From: an uncultured Ilumatobacter sp.
Lineage (GTDB): Bacteria > Actinomycetota > Acidimicrobiia > Acidimicrobiales > Ilumatobacteraceae
DNA: 51,033 nt
NCBI GenBank assembly: GCA_937919625.1
Contig: CALFRK010000090.1
Location: 1 to 51,033 of the forward strand
Reading direction: 5' to 3'
In this document: positions 27,414 through 32,160 of the stretch, in pieces
Numbering within the stretch: the first letter of the stretch is position 1
How the letters are laid out: each line of letters opens with the position of its first letter
The notes under the pieces: generated by a model
Told to the model about the DNA's origin: nothing
The model's database searches: none
What the model saw: the letters and a program-made list of their open reading frames with translations, nothing else
Program-made: the position numbers and the translations under genes

Positions 27414-29369
27414 ATGACCACTCTCTCCGCCGAGCTCGACCACGACGCCGTCAATCTGATCCGTGGGTTCGCGATGGATGGTCCGCTCAATGCCAACAGT
27501 GGCCATCAGGGCACAGCGATGGCGCTCGCGCCGCTGGCTCACGTGCTGTACAGCCGCCTGCTGAAGTTCGATCCGGCCAACCCGACGTGGGCCGATCGCG
27601 ATCGTTTCATCCTCTCGGCTGGGCATGCGTCGATCCTGCAGTACTCAATGCTGTATCTCACCGGCCACGGGCTGGGACTCGACGACCTCAAAGCATTCCG
27701 CCAGTGGGAGTCGGCCACCCCTGGACATCCCGAGGCCGGTCACACAGCCGGCGTCGAGGTCACAACGGGTCCGCTTGGCCAAGGTTTTGCCAACGCCGTC
27801 GGAATGGCCGTCGCCGAACGGATCCTCGGTGCACGTTTCGGCACCGAGGCAATCGATCACCACACGTTTGTGATTGCCGGCGACGGCTGCCTGATGGAGG
27901 GAGTGTCGCATGAGGCCGCATCGCTTGCTGGTCATCTCGGGCTCGGCAAGCTCGTCGCCGTCTACGACGACAATCACATCACGATCGACGGCAAGACCGA
28001 AATTGCCTACACCGACGACGCACCGGCCAGGTTTCGCAGCTACGGCTGGCATGTGATCGAACTCGGCGAGGTCGCCAATGATCTCGACGCTCTCGAGTCG
28101 GCCCTGCTCGAAGGCAAGTCCGTCACCGACCGACCCAGCCTGCTCGTGCTGCGCTCACACATCGGCTATCCCTCTCCCAATCACACCGATTCACCCGCCG
28201 CCCACGGTTTGGCTTTCAAGCCCGACGATGTCACCCGCACCAAGGCGGTCATGGGTATCCCCGACGAACCATTCTGGGCACCGGCCAATGTGGTCGACGC
28301 CTATCGATCGCATGCCTCGCAACGCGGCGCGGCCGCCAATCAAGAGTGGACCGCACGCAATGCCGATCTCATTAAATCACCAGGGTGGATCGCCTGTTGG
28401 AACAGCACCGGGGTCGAGGGTTGGTCCGATGGTCTTCCGGTCTACGAGCAGGGCGCCAAGGTGGCGACCCGTAAGGCGATCAACGCCGCCCTCGATGCGA
28501 CTGTCGAGGCGATTCCCGGTTTGGTTGCCGGATCCGCCGACCTGACCGGAAACACCGGCACCAAACTGGCAGGCCAGTCAGCACAGTCGGCAGCCAATCC
28601 CGGCGGTCGGCAGATCTACTTCGGTGTCCGCGAGCACGGCATGGGTTCGGCGATGGTCGGCATGGCTCTGCACGGCGGTGTGATCCCGGTCGGCGGCACC
28701 TTCTTCGTGTTCGTCGACTACATGCGCCCTGCCGTTCGGCTCGCAGCGCTCTCTAGCGCCAAGGCGTGCTTCGTCTTCACCCATGACTCGGTCGGTGTCG
28801 GCGAAGACGGCCCCACACACCAACCGGTCGAACAGCTTGCCACGATTCGGGCAATCCCTGACCTGCACGTCATTCGCCCGGCCGACGCCAATGAAACGGT
28901 TGCCGCCTGGAAGGACGCCGTCGGTCACGATGGGCCGACCGCACTGGTACTCAGCCGGCAAGACATCCCTGTCGTCACAGACGGCTCGGCGGTCGAGTTT
29001 GGCGCCGGCATCGTAAGGGGCGACGGCGATCCCGACATCGTGCTTGTCGCAACCGGCAGCGAGGTCGCCGTCTGCGTCGAAGCTTTCGAACAGCTGGCGG
29101 CCACCGGCACCTCGGCACGCGTCGTCAGCATGCCCTCCTGGGATCGGTTCGACCTGCAGAACACCGGCTTCCAACGCGGGATCTTCCCACCAAATGTGCC
29201 GGTGCTGTCGGTCGAGGCGGCAACCACTCTCGGCTGGCACAAGTACGCCGATGACGTGATCGGCATCGATCGCTTCGGCGCCAGCGCACCCGGGGATGTC
29301 GTTCTCCACAACCTCGGCATCAATGTCGACCACGTTGTCGAGCGGGCAATCGCCCTGCTCGCCAACTGA
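27414..29369 (+). CDS. tkt: Transketolase
   Basis: Thiamine-diphosphate enzyme of the pentose phosphate and Calvin-type pathways, moving two-carbon units between sugar phosphates. Domains: ThDP-binding N-terminal domain with AMDGPLNANSGHQGTAMALAP, GPLGQGFANAVGMAVAE and the GDGCLMEGVSHEAASLAGHLGLGKL motif with YDDNHITIDG; the pyrimidine-binding domain with FGVREHGMGSAMVGMALHGG and HDSVGVGEDGPTHQPVEQL; and a C-terminal domain. Length is 651 aa. Either the GTG at 27411 or the ATG at 27414 can start it. Transaldolase follows after 22 bases. Confidence 0.96.
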   Translation: MTTLSAELDHDAVNLIRGFAMDGPLNANSGHQGTAMALAPLAHVLYSRLLKFDPANPTWADRDRFILSAGHASILQYSMLYLTGHGLGLDDLKAFRQWESATPGHPEAGHTAGVEVTTGPLGQGFANAVGMAVAERILGARFGTEAIDHHTFVIAGDGCLMEGVSHEAASLAGHLGLGKLVAVYDDNHITIDGKTEIAYTDDAPARFRSYGWHVIELGEVANDLDALESALLEGKSVTDRPSLLVLRSHIGYPSPNHTDSPAAHGLAFKPDDVTRTKAVMGIPDEPFWAPANVVDAYRSHASQRGAAANQEWTARNADLIKSPGWIACWNSTGVEGWSDGLPVYEQGAKVATRKAINAALDATVEAIPGLVAGSADLTGNTGTKLAGQSAQSAANPGGRQIYFGVREHGMGSAMVGMALHGGVIPVGGTFFVFVDYMRPAVRLAALSSAKACFVFTHDSVGVGEDGPTHQPVEQLATIRAIPDLHVIRPADANETVAAWKDAVGHDGPTALVLSRQDIPVVTDGSAVEFGAGIVRGDGDPDIVLVATGSEVAVCVEAFEQLAATGTSARVVSMPSWDRFDLQNTGFQRGIFPPNVPVLSVEAATTLGWHKYADDVIGIDRFGASAPGDVVLHNLGINVDHVVERAIALLAN

Positions 29370-29391
29370 ACTCACTGCTCAAGGAGCATCC

Positions 29392-30501
29392 ATGAACCGT
29401 CTCGCCGCCCTCTCACAGCAGTACGGTCAGAGCCCCTGGCTCGACAATCTCAAGCGCAGCTATCTCACCTCTGGCGAGTTGGCGGCGATACGCGATCGTG
29501 GCGTGCGAGGTCTCACGTCGAACCCTTCGATCTTCCAAAAGGCGATTCAGGGCTCGCCTGACTACGACGAGCAGTTCCGGGTGCTGGCAGCCGACGAACA
29601 CCCCGTCATCGACGACTATTGGGCGATGGTGTTGGCAGACATCCACGGCGCCTGCGACGTATTCTCCCGGGTCTACGACGAGAGCGACGCGCTCGACGGT
29701 TACGTGTCGGTAGAAGTCGACCCCGGTCTCGCGCACGATGGCCCGGGCACCGAGACCGCCGCCCGTCAGCTGCACGAGCGCTTGCGGCGTCGCAATCTGA
29801 TGGTCAAGATTCCTGCCACCCTCGAAGGTCTCCCGCCAATCCAGCGGATGATCGCCGAGGGTCGCAGTATCAATGTCACTCTGATCTTCTCGCTCGAGCG
29901 CTACCAGGCCGTGATCGACGCCTACATCGAAGGGATCGAAGAACTCGCTGGCGACCCCTCGGCGGATTTGACGCGGGTGGCCAGCGTGGCCAGCTTCTTC
30001 ATCAGCCGCGTCGACGTCGAGGTCGATCGGCAACTCGAGGCGATCGGCACCGCCGAGGCGTTGGCGTTGCGCGGCAAAGCAGCCGTCGCCCAGGGCCAAC
30101 TCGCTTACGAGCAGTTCACCGAGGCTTTCGGTGGCAGTCGTTGGAAGCCGCTCGCCCTTCGCGGCGCGCGAGTGCAACGACCACTGTGGGCCAGCACCGG
30201 CACCAAGAACCCTGAGTACTCAGATGTTCTGTATGTCGACAGCTTGATCGGGCCGCACACGGTGAACACACTGCCCGAACCAACACTCGAGGCGTTTGCC
30301 GACCACGGCGTGTTGGCCCGCACGGTCGATGCCGAGATAGACGACGCCCACGAGATCTGGAATGGCCTCGCCAATGTCGGGGTCGACATGGATGCCGTCT
30401 CCGACAAGCTCGAGCGCGAAGGCGTCGACGCCTTCGCCAAAAGCTTTGACGAACTGCTCGAGGCCCTCGAAGCGAAGGCTGCCGAATTGAGAGCAGGCTA
30501 A
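29392..30501 (+). CDS. tal: Transaldolase
   Basis: Transfers dihydroxyacetone units in the non-oxidative pentose phosphate pathway through a Schiff base on Lys139 (NLMVKIPATLEGL). Other family blocks are RGVRGLTSNPSIFQKAI, GRSINVTLIFSLERYQAVI, VASFFISRVDVEVD and LWASTGTKNPEYSDV. At 369 aa it is of the actinobacterial long type. A good AAGGAG precedes the ATG at 29392. Its TAA stop is completed by the first two bases of the adjacent insertion element; the uninterrupted gene would have ended one codon identical with TGA. Confidence 0.95.
   Translation: MNRLAALSQQYGQSPWLDNLKRSYLTSGELAAIRDRGVRGLTSNPSIFQKAIQGSPDYDEQFRVLAADEHPVIDDYWAMVLADIHGACDVFSRVYDESDALDGYVSVEVDPGLAHDGPGTETAARQLHERLRRRNLMVKIPATLEGLPPIQRMIAEGRSINVTLIFSLERYQAVIDAYIEGIEELAGDPSADLTRVASVASFFISRVDVEVDRQLEAIGTAEALALRGKAAVAQGQLAYEQFTEAFGGSRWKPLALRGARVQRPLWASTGTKNPEYSDVLYVDSLIGPHTVNTLPEPTLEAFADHGVLARTVDAEIDDAHEIWNGLANVGVDMDAVSDKLEREGVDAFAKSFDELLEALEAKAAELRAG
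30490..30499. repeat. Direct repeat AGAGCAGGCT, left copy (target-site duplication candidate)
   Basis: Matches 32130-32139 exactly. It is the last ten bases of the transaldolase coding sequence, ending in the T of the stop codon. Two bases separate it from the terminal inverted repeat. Confidence 0.75.
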
Positions 30502-30534
30502 GTTCGGCAGCAAGGTGACATGATTGGTAGGAAA
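30502..30534. repeat. Terminal inverted repeat, right end relative to tnpB
   Basis: 33 bases, perfect reverse complement of 32095-32127. It starts one base after the transaldolase stop codon and ends GGTAGGAAA; beyond it the two ends still share TCC and then diverge. Confidence 0.9.
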
Positions 30535-30542
30535 ATCCTGCC
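30526..30542 (-). ncRNA. Hairpin at the 3' end of the tnpB transcript, part of a candidate omega RNA
   Basis: GGTAGGA and TCCTGCC pair (one G-T) around AAA, inside and just beyond the terminal repeat. TnpB guide RNAs lie at and beyond the 3' end of tnpB and run to the element end, so the 94 bases from 30595 down to 30502 are the expected scaffold region; the guide would then be read from flanking DNA. This is inferred from position only. Confidence 0.35.
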
Positions 30543-30595
30543 GTTCGGTGCTCACTGTCGATACTGGTCGCCGTTACCGGCGGCCCGTCCAGGTC

Positions 30596-32062
30596 TCATG
30601 CCACACGAAGGTGTGACTGCCTGGTTCTGGCATCAACAGACACTGCCGCCCCGGCCGTGGCCGGTTCGGTCTTGTGTGTCCTCAGCGCAGCGTTTCGAGT
30701 CTCCGGTCGTAGCCCGGCGACATCCAACCCTGACGGGTCGGCTTGTTGCTGAGCGTGAAGCCGGACGGCTTCACGCTCGATGTTGCGTGCAGCGTTCACA
30801 TCACGATCGATGTGGGTGCCGCACGTGGTGCAGTCGAAGGTTCTCTGGCTGAGGGACAGCTTGGCTGTCACCGTCCCACAGTTCGAGCAGGTCTTCGACG
30901 ACGGATACCACCGGTCGACAGCAACCAAGTTGGTGCCACGGTCGGTGCATTCGGTGGTGATGATCGTGCGCAACTGGCCGAGCCCTGCGTCGGCGAGCGC
31001 ACGCGCCAGCGGCCGGTTGTGTGTCATCCCGCGCACGTTGAGGTCCTCGACACCGACGAGATCGAATCGGGCGGCGAGCTGGTTGGCCAGCTGATGATGA
31101 GCGATGGCTCGAGTCTTGGTGACCCGCCCGTGGAGCCGTGCCCGTCTGCGGACGAGCTTGGCCCGGTTCTTCGAGCCGTCGCTGCAGCGGGCGATGCGCC
31201 GGTCGAGGTCCTTCAATCGTTCGAGTTGTCCGGCGAGTGGTCGCGGGTTGTGAACATGCCCGTCCTCATCGGTGACATCCGGGACCGGCCATGACAAGGT
31301 GGCCAGATGCGTGAGGCCGACATCGACACCGACCGAACCCGCGATGCGGGTATGGCCGCGCTTTTGTGGTCGGGCCGCAAGCTGGTAACGAACCATGAAC
31401 GACGCCTGCCACCGGCCACCCGTGTACGAGATCGTCACCTTCTGGACCGTCGCCTTGTCCTGCTCGACCAACCGGTACAGCCGACGCGTCGACTCGACGG
31501 TGTGCAACCAGACGAGCTGTTGCATCTTCGCCCGCACATGCAGGTTCTTCGACTGCAACAGCGTCTGGGGGAGCATCAACCGGATCGCATGGCGTGACGG
31601 ATGGAACCAAGAGAGCTGATGGTTCAACTCGACGAACGACACGGAAAGCTTCGCCGTCTTGCGTGACTTGAACCCCGGGAACCCAACCCGCACACCGGCC
31701 CGTTCCCCGTTACGCGACGCCGACCAGTTCTTGAACGCCTCCGCAGCCTGGATGATCCCAGTGTCGAAGCAATGCTTGGCCACCTCACCGGACCATGACG
31801 CCACCTCAGGCTTCACCTGGTTGAACTGCTTGCGCAACGAGTACGCCGACCACGACTGCGACGGCGTCAACGCCTCCTCAGCGACCCCAGCCGCGCGCTC
31901 ACCGGCGCGCACCTCGAGGTTCTCGACGATCGTCCGGCGGGCCCAGTTGTACGCAAAGCGTGCTGCACCAGAATAGCTGCGCAACATCCGATCCTGGGCC
32001 GGCGACGTGTCGAGCGTGAACACCACCGCACGCGTCACGAAACCCTCATCCGCCGCACCCAT
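30596..32062 (-). CDS. tnpB: RNA-guided endonuclease TnpB (IS200/IS605 OrfB family)
   Basis: 488-aa transposon-encoded nuclease, ancestor family of Cas12. The RuvC catalytic residues are all present: Asp in GVDVGLTHLA, Glu in GVEDLNVRGM and Asp in HIDRDVNAARN. The zinc ribbon CSNCG...CTTCG sits between the second and third. The N-terminal helix-turn-helix region (YSGAARFAYNWARRT) is typical. A 40-residue Gly/Ala-poor tail after the last Asp is longer than in minimal TnpBs. The start ATG at 32062 is chosen; six more residues are possible upstream. It looks intact, so activity is plausible. Confidence 0.92.
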   Translation of the reverse strand: MGAADEGFVTRAVVFTLDTSPAQDRMLRSYSGAARFAYNWARRTIVENLEVRAGERAAGVAEEALTPSQSWSAYSLRKQFNQVKPEVASWSGEVAKHCFDTGIIQAAEAFKNWSASRNGERAGVRVGFPGFKSRKTAKLSVSFVELNHQLSWFHPSRHAIRLMLPQTLLQSKNLHVRAKMQQLVWLHTVESTRRLYRLVEQDKATVQKVTISYTGGRWQASFMVRYQLAARPQKRGHTRIAGSVGVDVGLTHLATLSWPVPDVTDEDGHVHNPRPLAGQLERLKDLDRRIARCSDGSKNRAKLVRRRARLHGRVTKTRAIAHHQLANQLAARFDLVGVEDLNVRGMTHNRPLARALADAGLGQLRTIITTECTDRGTNLVAVDRWYPSSKTCSNCGTVTAKLSLSQRTFDCTTCGTHIDRDVNAARNIEREAVRLHAQQQADPSGLDVAGLRPETRNAALRTHKTEPATAGAAVSVDARTRQSHLRVA

Positions 32063-32074
32063 GCTTGACAGTGT

Positions 32075-32091
32075 CGTCACAGGGTGTGACG
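32075..32091. repeat. Subterminal hairpin CGTCACA-GGG-TGTGACG
   Basis: Perfect 7-bp arms, three-base loop, located 4 bases inside the terminal repeat on the tnpB promoter side. It may be a transposase or regulator binding site or a structure in the tnpB leader. Confidence 0.55.
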
Positions 32092-32094
32092 GAG

Positions 32095-32127
32095 TTTCCT
32101 ACCAATCATGTCACCTTGCTGCCGAAC
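32095..32127. repeat. Terminal inverted repeat, left end relative to tnpB
   Basis: 33 bases, perfect reverse complement of 30502-30534; it ends GCTGCCGAAC and is followed by CC and the direct repeat. Confidence 0.9.
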
Positions 32128-32129
32128 CC

Positions 32130-32139
32130 AGAGCAGGCT
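32130..32139. repeat. Direct repeat AGAGCAGGCT, right copy
   Basis: Identical to 30490-30499. The bases that follow (GACGG) would restore a TGA stop to the transaldolase frame if the element were removed. Confidence 0.75.
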
Positions 32140-32160
32140 GACGGCGACTGGCGTCAGCCA

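Follow-up and report, generated by a model that had tools for sequence, protein, structure and literature searches.

The window analyzed here is the whole 51,033-nucleotide stretch of contig CALFRK010000090.1 from an uncultured Ilumatobacter sp. It contains a 1632-bp element that carries a tnpB gene between terminal inverted repeats (TIRs) and is flanked by target site duplications (TSDs). Left and right ends are named in tnpB sense. The features of the locus were as follows.

30499..32130, minus strand: whole element, 1632 bp, with tnpB sense running from 32130 to 30499 (comparison with eight other contiguous tnpB elements)
30596..32080, minus strand: tnpB, 494 amino acids, IS607-like, RuvC D-E-D motifs in place (Pfam, NCBIfam and alignment)
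32091..32127, minus strand: left-end TIR, 5' of tnpB, beginning GTTCGGCAGCAAGGTGACATGATTGGTAGGAAA (related ends in other elements)
30502..30538, minus strand: right-end TIR, 3' of tnpB, the outer portion of which also takes part in predicted omega-RNA pairing (GAACC with an upstream GGTTC)
30491..30498, no strand: target duplication copy 1, GAGCAGGC (flank comparison)
32131..32138, no strand: target duplication copy 2, GAGCAGGC (flank comparison)
32138..32141, minus strand: putative target-adjacent motif (TAM) in the left flank, reading TCAG, its last base being the first of the TSD (flank counts)
30499..30681, minus strand: predicted omega-RNA (right-end RNA, reRNA) scaffold, overlapping the tnpB 3' end and the right TIR (covariation, 10 elements)
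30562..30634, minus strand: Rfam RF03015, Transposase-2 RNA, 46.5 bits against a gathering score of 42.7 (Rfam match)
30479..30498, minus strand: putative guide segment, the TSD and target flank right after the right end, 20 nt assumed (anatomy)
29296..30501, plus strand: transaldolase gene, whose stop TAA (30499-30501) comes from the element; the joined site reads TGA (joined-site reading)

The single intact tnpB reported by an initial annotation of this DNA was recovered at 30596-32080, and the other open reading frames of at least 80 amino acids in the element overlap it on either strand; tnpB is the only recognised gene. The inverted arms span 37 nt with 97% identity, and their first 33 nt are perfect, as had been described. 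In a blind flank test the window arms scored 34, four shuffles scored 8-10, and seven tnpB elements of the window family scored 13-34. The initial annotation had also read a 10-bp target duplication. The 10-bp direct repeat, AGAGCAGGCT, is indeed present at 30490-30499 and 32130-32139. However, over 13 tnpB insertions including the window (nine contiguous and four paired across contigs of genome G364) the duplication measured 8 bp, matching at 8/8 positions in 10 and at 7/8 in 3. The 10-bp TSD was therefore rejected, and each boundary shifts by 1 nt, from 30500-32129 to 30499-32130. The two outer bases of the repeat would be a chance match with the element-terminal bases. Further copies in the window genome, which the initial annotation had proposed to look for, were not found; the intact one in the window is the only copy detected.

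Related elements were present in other genomes. Nine tnpB elements from eight genomes of one order have both ends on one contig and measure 1597-1750 bp; all nine have TIRs and a fixed-length duplication, as expected for a DDE TIR transposon. TnpB relatives in G023 (68% identity) and G049 (62%) both have similar ends. A family-level TnpB search matched 6 of 150 genomes, the window genome included, and a search of 397 genomes matched 5 at E values up to 1e-60. The TIR pattern scan of the class matched 27 of 395 genomes, with none in the control column; the scan of the order matched 43 of 397, while the reversed control pattern matched in 13 genomes. Many single TIR matches thus look like chance, and the analysis relied solely on inverted pairs and on flanks that agree with the layout. 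Together, the scans and the TnpB search of 397 genomes contributed G437, G511, G507 and, in G364, ten ends at contig edges; G334, G737 and a pair of G598 loci followed.

The layout, in tnpB sense, reads TCA / N8 / NNN GTTCGGC ... GCCGAAC YTA / N8 / target; in G511 and G737 the GTTCGGC of the left end carries base changes. The end motif GTTCGGCAGCAAGGTG occurs at both ends in the window, G049 and G437, and with one change at the right end of G023 and the left end of G511; a GCAAAT-type variant was seen in G334, both G598 elements and G737. The N8 repeats agree at 8/8 positions in the window, G049, G437, G511, G334 and G598a, and at 7/8 in G023, G737 and G598b. In G364, where the start of tnpB lies at the contig edge in 4 of 5 left ends, pairs were chosen by matching five left against five right ends; four pairs across contigs gave 8/8, and the fifth combination (L056/L065), with 6 of 8 bp, is probably not one element and entered the flank counts only. 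The G507 tnpB element, whose left end was not found, entered the right-end counts only. Since N8 differs between insertions, it was read as duplicated target DNA. According to the initial annotation, copies with boundaries elsewhere, or the lack of any related element with these ends, would have spoken against its reading; both were looked for, and neither was seen, as the relatives keep the TIR layout.

Left out of the count were weak or broken matches (G004, G094, G121), tnpB fragments of G437 C110 and G364, and single or contig-edge ends in G503, G471, G709, G776, G636, G751 and G567. In G511 (L055), tnpB is broken across two frames, which may mean that decay of some copies is under way. 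Related tnpB fragments without recognised ends at L112 (G437 C110) and L019 (G094 C176) are possibly older decayed copies. In G503, three contig ends of C4 and C8 (L052-L054) enter the TIR described here 150-354 bp from the edge, which suggests a repeated element; no tnpB or transposase match was found in that genome. Exact TIR scans of the viral and genome contig collections gave 0 matches each, and a shorter TIR pattern matched two viral contigs; the one that was read shows a single end. TnpB peptide-pattern searches of the same two kinds of collection found no relatives.

Related ends also bound short elements lacking tnpB. In G023, a 322-bp element (L105 3584-3905) has a right end with two changes and the repeat GGCCCAGC, and a 344-bp element (L101 2109-2452) has a left end with two changes and the repeat ACGCGTCA, with a second partial copy adjoining it. 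A 681-bp element in G685 (L143 2827-3507) is flanked by CGACAGTC. These 8-bp repeats were read from the element flanks, and no tnpB match was detected in L101-L110 or L143.

The initial annotation had proposed to look for full-length elements with the same ends that carry a transposase, and transposase elements with related ends were found. Relatives of the candidate transposase were present in 10 of 397 genomes, four of them with short partial matches only. Substantial loci were those of G727, G635, G598 (three), G238, G507 and G208; weak fragments in G483, G628 and G458 were set aside, and a G520 fragment served as one row of an eight-protein alignment. In G727, related ends bound 5.75 kb and a 577-codon frame begins beside one TIR. 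The G635 element, the cleanest of the set, is 4442 bp long, with GTTCGGCAGCAAGATG at both ends and the TSD CCTCGGCC, and the G507 element is about 4.2 kb with the TSD GCCGCAGC. Both ends were found in G635, G507, G727 and G598 C95, and the 8-bp TSD in the first two. Two further observations concern these elements: an IS3-like rve transposase region lies at L142 4837-6326 within the 5.75-kb G727 element, and the G507 transposase element contains, 158 bp inward of its right end, another TIR (L149 7684), which belongs to the type seen in tnpB elements.

The G727 protein, the only transposase run alone, was compared with the Pfam and NCBIfam collections at E values up to 1 without matching any transposase model, those of IS256 and prokaryotic Mutator-like (p-MULT) families included, and had no PDB sequence match; one sub-cutoff Pfam NTPase line (0.074) and one unconvincing PHROG line (0.11) were returned. 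In the eight-protein alignment, from which G635 is absent, D280, D281, D354 and E504 (G727 numbering) were invariant. In an AlphaFold model with a mean predicted local distance difference test (pLDDT) score of 70 and a predicted TM-score (pTM) of 0.59, strand 1 holds D280/281 and D354 directly follows strand 4; the last core helix opens with E504, and a helical insert (378-494) separates the second D from the E. Structural comparison placed ISCth4 of the IS256 family best (Z 16.1, root-mean-square deviation 4.4, 276 residues aligned), followed by Hermes (Z 12.0-13.7), the P element (Z 9.3-9.4) and retroviral integrases (about Z 8.5-10.5). Foldseek alone placed Hermes first (E 4.4e-4), although its TM-scores were low. 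Alignment and fold prediction thus indicate a DDE transposase in relatives that share such ends; the predicted core of this partner protein is of the RNase H-type DDE kind, interrupted by a helical insert between the second D and E, as in IS256 and p-MULT. No match to the transposase was found in 72,556 plasmid records at 1e-5, and a pattern search of the viral contig collection found no relatives. The family to which this transposase belongs may be novel.

A DEDDh (RNase_T) exonuclease frame lies directly downstream of the transposase, in the same orientation, at 7 of the 8 substantial loci: G727 (L142 6353-7960), G208, G598 (three, two of them cut by contig ends), G238 and G507. In G635 (L171 3716-6913), transposase and exonuclease form one 1065-amino-acid frame. 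The exonuclease loci were L142, L171, L170, L166-L169 and L149.

To link the tnpB elements to the transposase, the first 45 nt of tnpB-element ends were compared to transposase-element ends and scored out of 45. The scores ranged from 21 to 37; shuffled ends averaged 19.4 and reached at most 23.8. The best pair (37) consists of a tnpB element and a transposase element both in G598, alike through GGGGTGCCTGA. In this genome, two of the four ends of tnpB elements and three of the four ends of transposase elements carry the variant GCAAAT, where most others have GCAGCA. The window ends scored 32-33 against G727 and 26-32 against G635.

Window TnpB matched the Pfam domains OrfB_IS605 (8.8e-19), Cas12f1-like_TNB (3.6e-21) and HTH_OrfB_IS605 (2.2e-5), as expected for TnpB/OMEGA nucleases. 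The best named NCBIfam model was IS607_TnpB at 328.9 bits, below its cutoff of 350, and the general guided_TnpB model was matched at 212.5 bits, above its cutoff of 100. The TnpB itself is IS607-like, a refinement of the initial annotation. The RuvC D-E-D motifs VGVDVG, VEDLN and DRDVNAARN were intact in 9/9 aligned TnpBs, the split G511 protein being left out of the motif alignment. The Fanzor E_alt / DPG signature was absent: the first aspartate reads D-V-G, and because the glutamate sits in the canonical VEDLN motif, the protein is not of the pro-Fanzor type of PMC10711439. Named IS607 plasmid relatives have about 35-40% identity. Five of 46 plasmid records with TnpB relatives were opened; their flanking inverted repeats scored 9, 9, 10, 10 and 13 compared to 8-12 in shuffles, and one of the five adjoins an annotated IS607 transposase. 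A FastTree analysis of nine TIR-borne and seven other TnpBs separated the two sets with support 0.83, so one capture only is likely, though not firm.

The 3' region has the features of an omega-RNA gene reaching the right end. The RF03015 match in the window was accompanied by one in G023 (47.4 bits). Ten aligned 3' ends fold with 39 pairs, 20 of which changed on both sides, and 91.5% of cells were paired compared to 79.1% in shuffles and 26-40% for slid structures, a shuffle contrast that relatedness can inflate, with the structure predicted on the same alignment. In the last helix, GGTTC pairs with GAACC of the right TIR in 90% of cells; these pairs vary little and therefore say less. This covariation supports a predicted omega-RNA whose last stem uses the right TIR. 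Because the TSD varies between insertions, it should belong to the guide.

The flanks of the insertions were counted for a target motif. TCA was present in 13/14 left flanks and TCAG in 12/14, compared to 6/15 and 0/15 for the right mirror motifs TGA and CTGA. The Fisher p-values, 0.005 for TCA/TGA and 1.8e-6 for TCAG/CTGA, are a guide only, as the motif was noticed before counting and related insertions are not fully independent. Among the nine contiguous elements the left flank is TCA in 8/9, with TCC in G598b, and the right terminus was YTA in 15/15. Such a difference between the two sides is not expected from a symmetric preference of the transposase, but it is from a nuclease that reads the empty site by way of its left flank. 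TCAG was also present on one side in 3 of 5 tnpB-free insertions (G685, G635 and L105, not L101 and G507), so the transposase may share the preference. In prokaryotic Mutator-like elements, according to passages of PMC3942029, unequal repeats set the insertion orientation, and we therefore favour TCA(G) as the TAM of TnpB with some reserve.

At the insertion site, the transaldolase frame joined across the insertion ends in GCAGGC TGA; the element swaps in TAA and leaves the protein unchanged. The empty sites proposed by the initial annotation were sought among eight same-genus transaldolase loci, compared with the joined site. Four run ungapped 3-7 bases past the junction (G007, 150 bp, 77%; G002, 145 bp, 76%; G004; G009), and the other four stop before it, so the empty site is weakly supported.

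By sequence comparison, related TIRs and 8-bp duplications are common to the tnpB elements, the short tnpB-free elements and the transposase elements. We therefore interpret the window element, with a probability of roughly 0.83, as a non-autonomous transposon whose sole recognised gene encodes an IS607-like RNA-guided nuclease, moved in trans by a DDE transposase, with TnpB cutting the donor site. The DDE transposase would bind the TIRs, move the tnpB element and stagger the target by 8 bp. The omega-RNA would guide TnpB, its scaffold running through the right TIR and its guide comprising the TSD and right flank. TnpB would cut the empty donor site beside TCA(G), and repair from a sister copy would restore the element. 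The right end of the element reads YTA instead of TCA, and the element would therefore be spared by its own nuclease. Mobilization in trans by a DDE-type transposase, as the initial annotation had suggested, is favoured by the shared ends, the DDE-type predicted fold and two 8-bp TSDs. With no detectable partner in the window genome, the element looks like a non-autonomous passenger, and this copy is probably stranded.

Several observations weigh against this interpretation. The window genome, which is 98.7% complete, gave no transposase match at E values up to 0.001, and a profile search, covering 18 genomes selected because they had tnpB elements or TIR matches, found the transposase in two (G598 and G507). 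G364, with about five copies, had no transposase match, although collapsed repeats could hide one. The G507 transposase ends score 23 and 26 with the right end of the tnpB element in the same genome, near the shuffled maximum; several cross-genome scores are equally low, and similarity outside G598 is weaker. No TSD at the expected offset was seen in G727 (5 of 8 bp) or G598 C95 (4.1 kb, none), one end was found for G598 C78 and C159, and none for G238 and G208. The transposase model, built from eight sequences, has a mean pLDDT of 70, and its Foldseek transposase rows have TM-scores of at most 0.24 of the query. The blind flank test gave just 13-20 for five relatives (shuffles 8-12) and in G737 picked another pair than the TIR. 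RF03015 did not reach its gathering score at 8 of the 9 other tnpB loci, half of the transaldolase loci stop short of the junction, and the TCA asymmetry, noticed after the fact, might be transposase-derived.

Three other explanations were considered. The element could be an ordinary IS607-type or IS1341-like tnpB-only element that lost its serine recombinase, with incidental inverted repeats. IS607_TnpB is its best named model, though below cutoff; four actinobacterial plasmid relatives have no tnpA listed beside tnpB, in a plasmid gene table that is incomplete; and RF03015 is named for RNA near transposase genes. However, the abstract of PMC6188088 and passages of PMC3627910 describe IS607 elements without TIRs and TSDs, in agreement with the initial annotation. 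The TIRs here recur in nine contiguous tnpB elements with TSDs of 7-8 of 8 bp and in tnpB-free elements, and the plasmid relatives' repeats scored close to shuffles. Because TIR and TSD are present, an IS607 element with lost tnpA was rejected, and we regard it as very unlikely. A tyrosine-type site-specific recombinase, for which the 8-bp repeat would be a crossover core between half-sites with no duplication, might be suspected from the loosely palindromic target (TCA-N8-NGA) and from the likeness of the right terminus YTA to the target TCA. Yet duplication explains why the repeats vary between insertions and still agree on the two sides of any one element; the fold predicted for the partner protein is DDE-like; and Pfam gave no tyrosine recombinase match among those proteins of these elements that were run. 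The core site was set aside since insertion-specific repeats match at both ends, and this explanation, too, appears very unlikely.

A further explanation accepts the anatomy and gives TnpB another role than donor-site cutting, for example in TldR-like repression or host regulation, with TCA as the target choice of the transposase. The case for cutting by TnpB is indeed anatomical throughout, and the occurrence of TCAG beside tnpB-free insertions would fit a transposase preference. Against it, the catalytic residues are intact in all nine aligned TnpBs, and in tnpB elements TCAG is limited to the left flank. We consider a non-cutting TnpB unlikely, though clearly less so than the two recombinase-based explanations.

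The element was also compared to known systems. IS200/IS605 elements have a Y1 transposase or subterminal palindromes and no TIR or TSD, whereas a 37-nt TIR and a TSD are present here. IS607 provides the closest named TnpB model and the plasmid relatives; the window element differs in having TIRs and 8-bp duplications and no serine recombinase TnpA. The proposed TAM TCA(G) differs from GGG for ISXfa1 in passages of PMC10711439, and from AGGAG or GAGGG for 23 others in passages of PMC11061315.

The predicted DDE core with a helical insert resembles IS256, p-MULT and hAT (Hermes) transposases; the differences are that the G727 protein matches no transposase model and that a DEDDh exonuclease gene is adjacent or fused. 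TSDs of about 8 bp are typical of hAT, P and IS256 elements. Miniature inverted-repeat transposable elements (MITEs) have ends without a transposase gene and are mobilized in trans. The window element shares with them, and with non-autonomous IS derivatives, such ends and probable movement in trans; it differs in that it carries a conserved gene for a nuclease, followed by a 3' region that looks like a guide RNA. A pairing of DDE transposase with DEDDh exonuclease is described for eukaryotic KolobokD in passages of PMC9587614, a likeness of gene pairing.

The layout also resembles that of Fanzors, as the initial annotation had noted: in both, elements with TIRs and TSDs carry a nuclease of the TnpB family, and some of them lack a transposase of their own. 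According to passages of PMC3627910 and PMC10711439, Fanzor elements occur in the eukaryotic DDE transposons Mariner, hAT, MuDr and IS4-like, and passages of the latter report Fanzor2* elements in molluscs and Chloropicon and predict the Fanzor TIR and TSD in the reRNA scaffold. The TIR is predicted in the scaffold here as well. The window element differs in being bacterial, with an IS607-like TnpB that has the canonical glutamate. It also differs from Fanzor1s and Fanzor2*s in the TSD, which is predicted scaffold in those elements and, being variable in the window family, would be guide here.

By a narrow balance, we hold that the element is a bacterial counterpart of Fanzors, in which an IS607-like TnpB clade left its serine recombinase and became the passenger of an undescribed DDE transposon family with a hAT/IS256-like transposase and a DEDDh exonuclease, some parts now being shared by nuclease and transposon. 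The right TIR, to which the transposase binds, would double as the last guide-RNA stem; the preferred site of the transposase would be the TnpB motif; and the C-to-T change at the right terminus (TCA to YTA) would protect the element from its own nuclease. In the literature partly covered, bacterial TnpB was described in IS200/IS605 and IS607, and capture by DDE elements in eukaryotes. Among the matches listed for TnpB in DDE/TIR elements there was no bacterial case, in a search whose coverage excludes most subscription journals. The undescribed class suggested by the initial annotation thus had no bacterial precedent in the literature searched, although the tnpB element recombines known parts; the transposase family, to which a DEDDh exonuclease is linked, is apparently undescribed as well.

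TnpB therefore seems to have changed its transposon partner in bacteria much as Fanzors did in eukaryotes. If this is true, RNA-guided nucleases of the TnpB type can, in bacteria, do without an association with Y1 or serine recombinases, and the transposase change inferred for eukaryotic Fanzors also occurs in prokaryotes. The family would offer a simple system for asking whether donor-site cutting by TnpB rescues a cut-and-paste DDE transposon, and a system for the co-evolution of guide-RNA scaffold, target motif and transposase ends. Furthermore, it exposes the apparently undescribed transposase family and its linked exonuclease.

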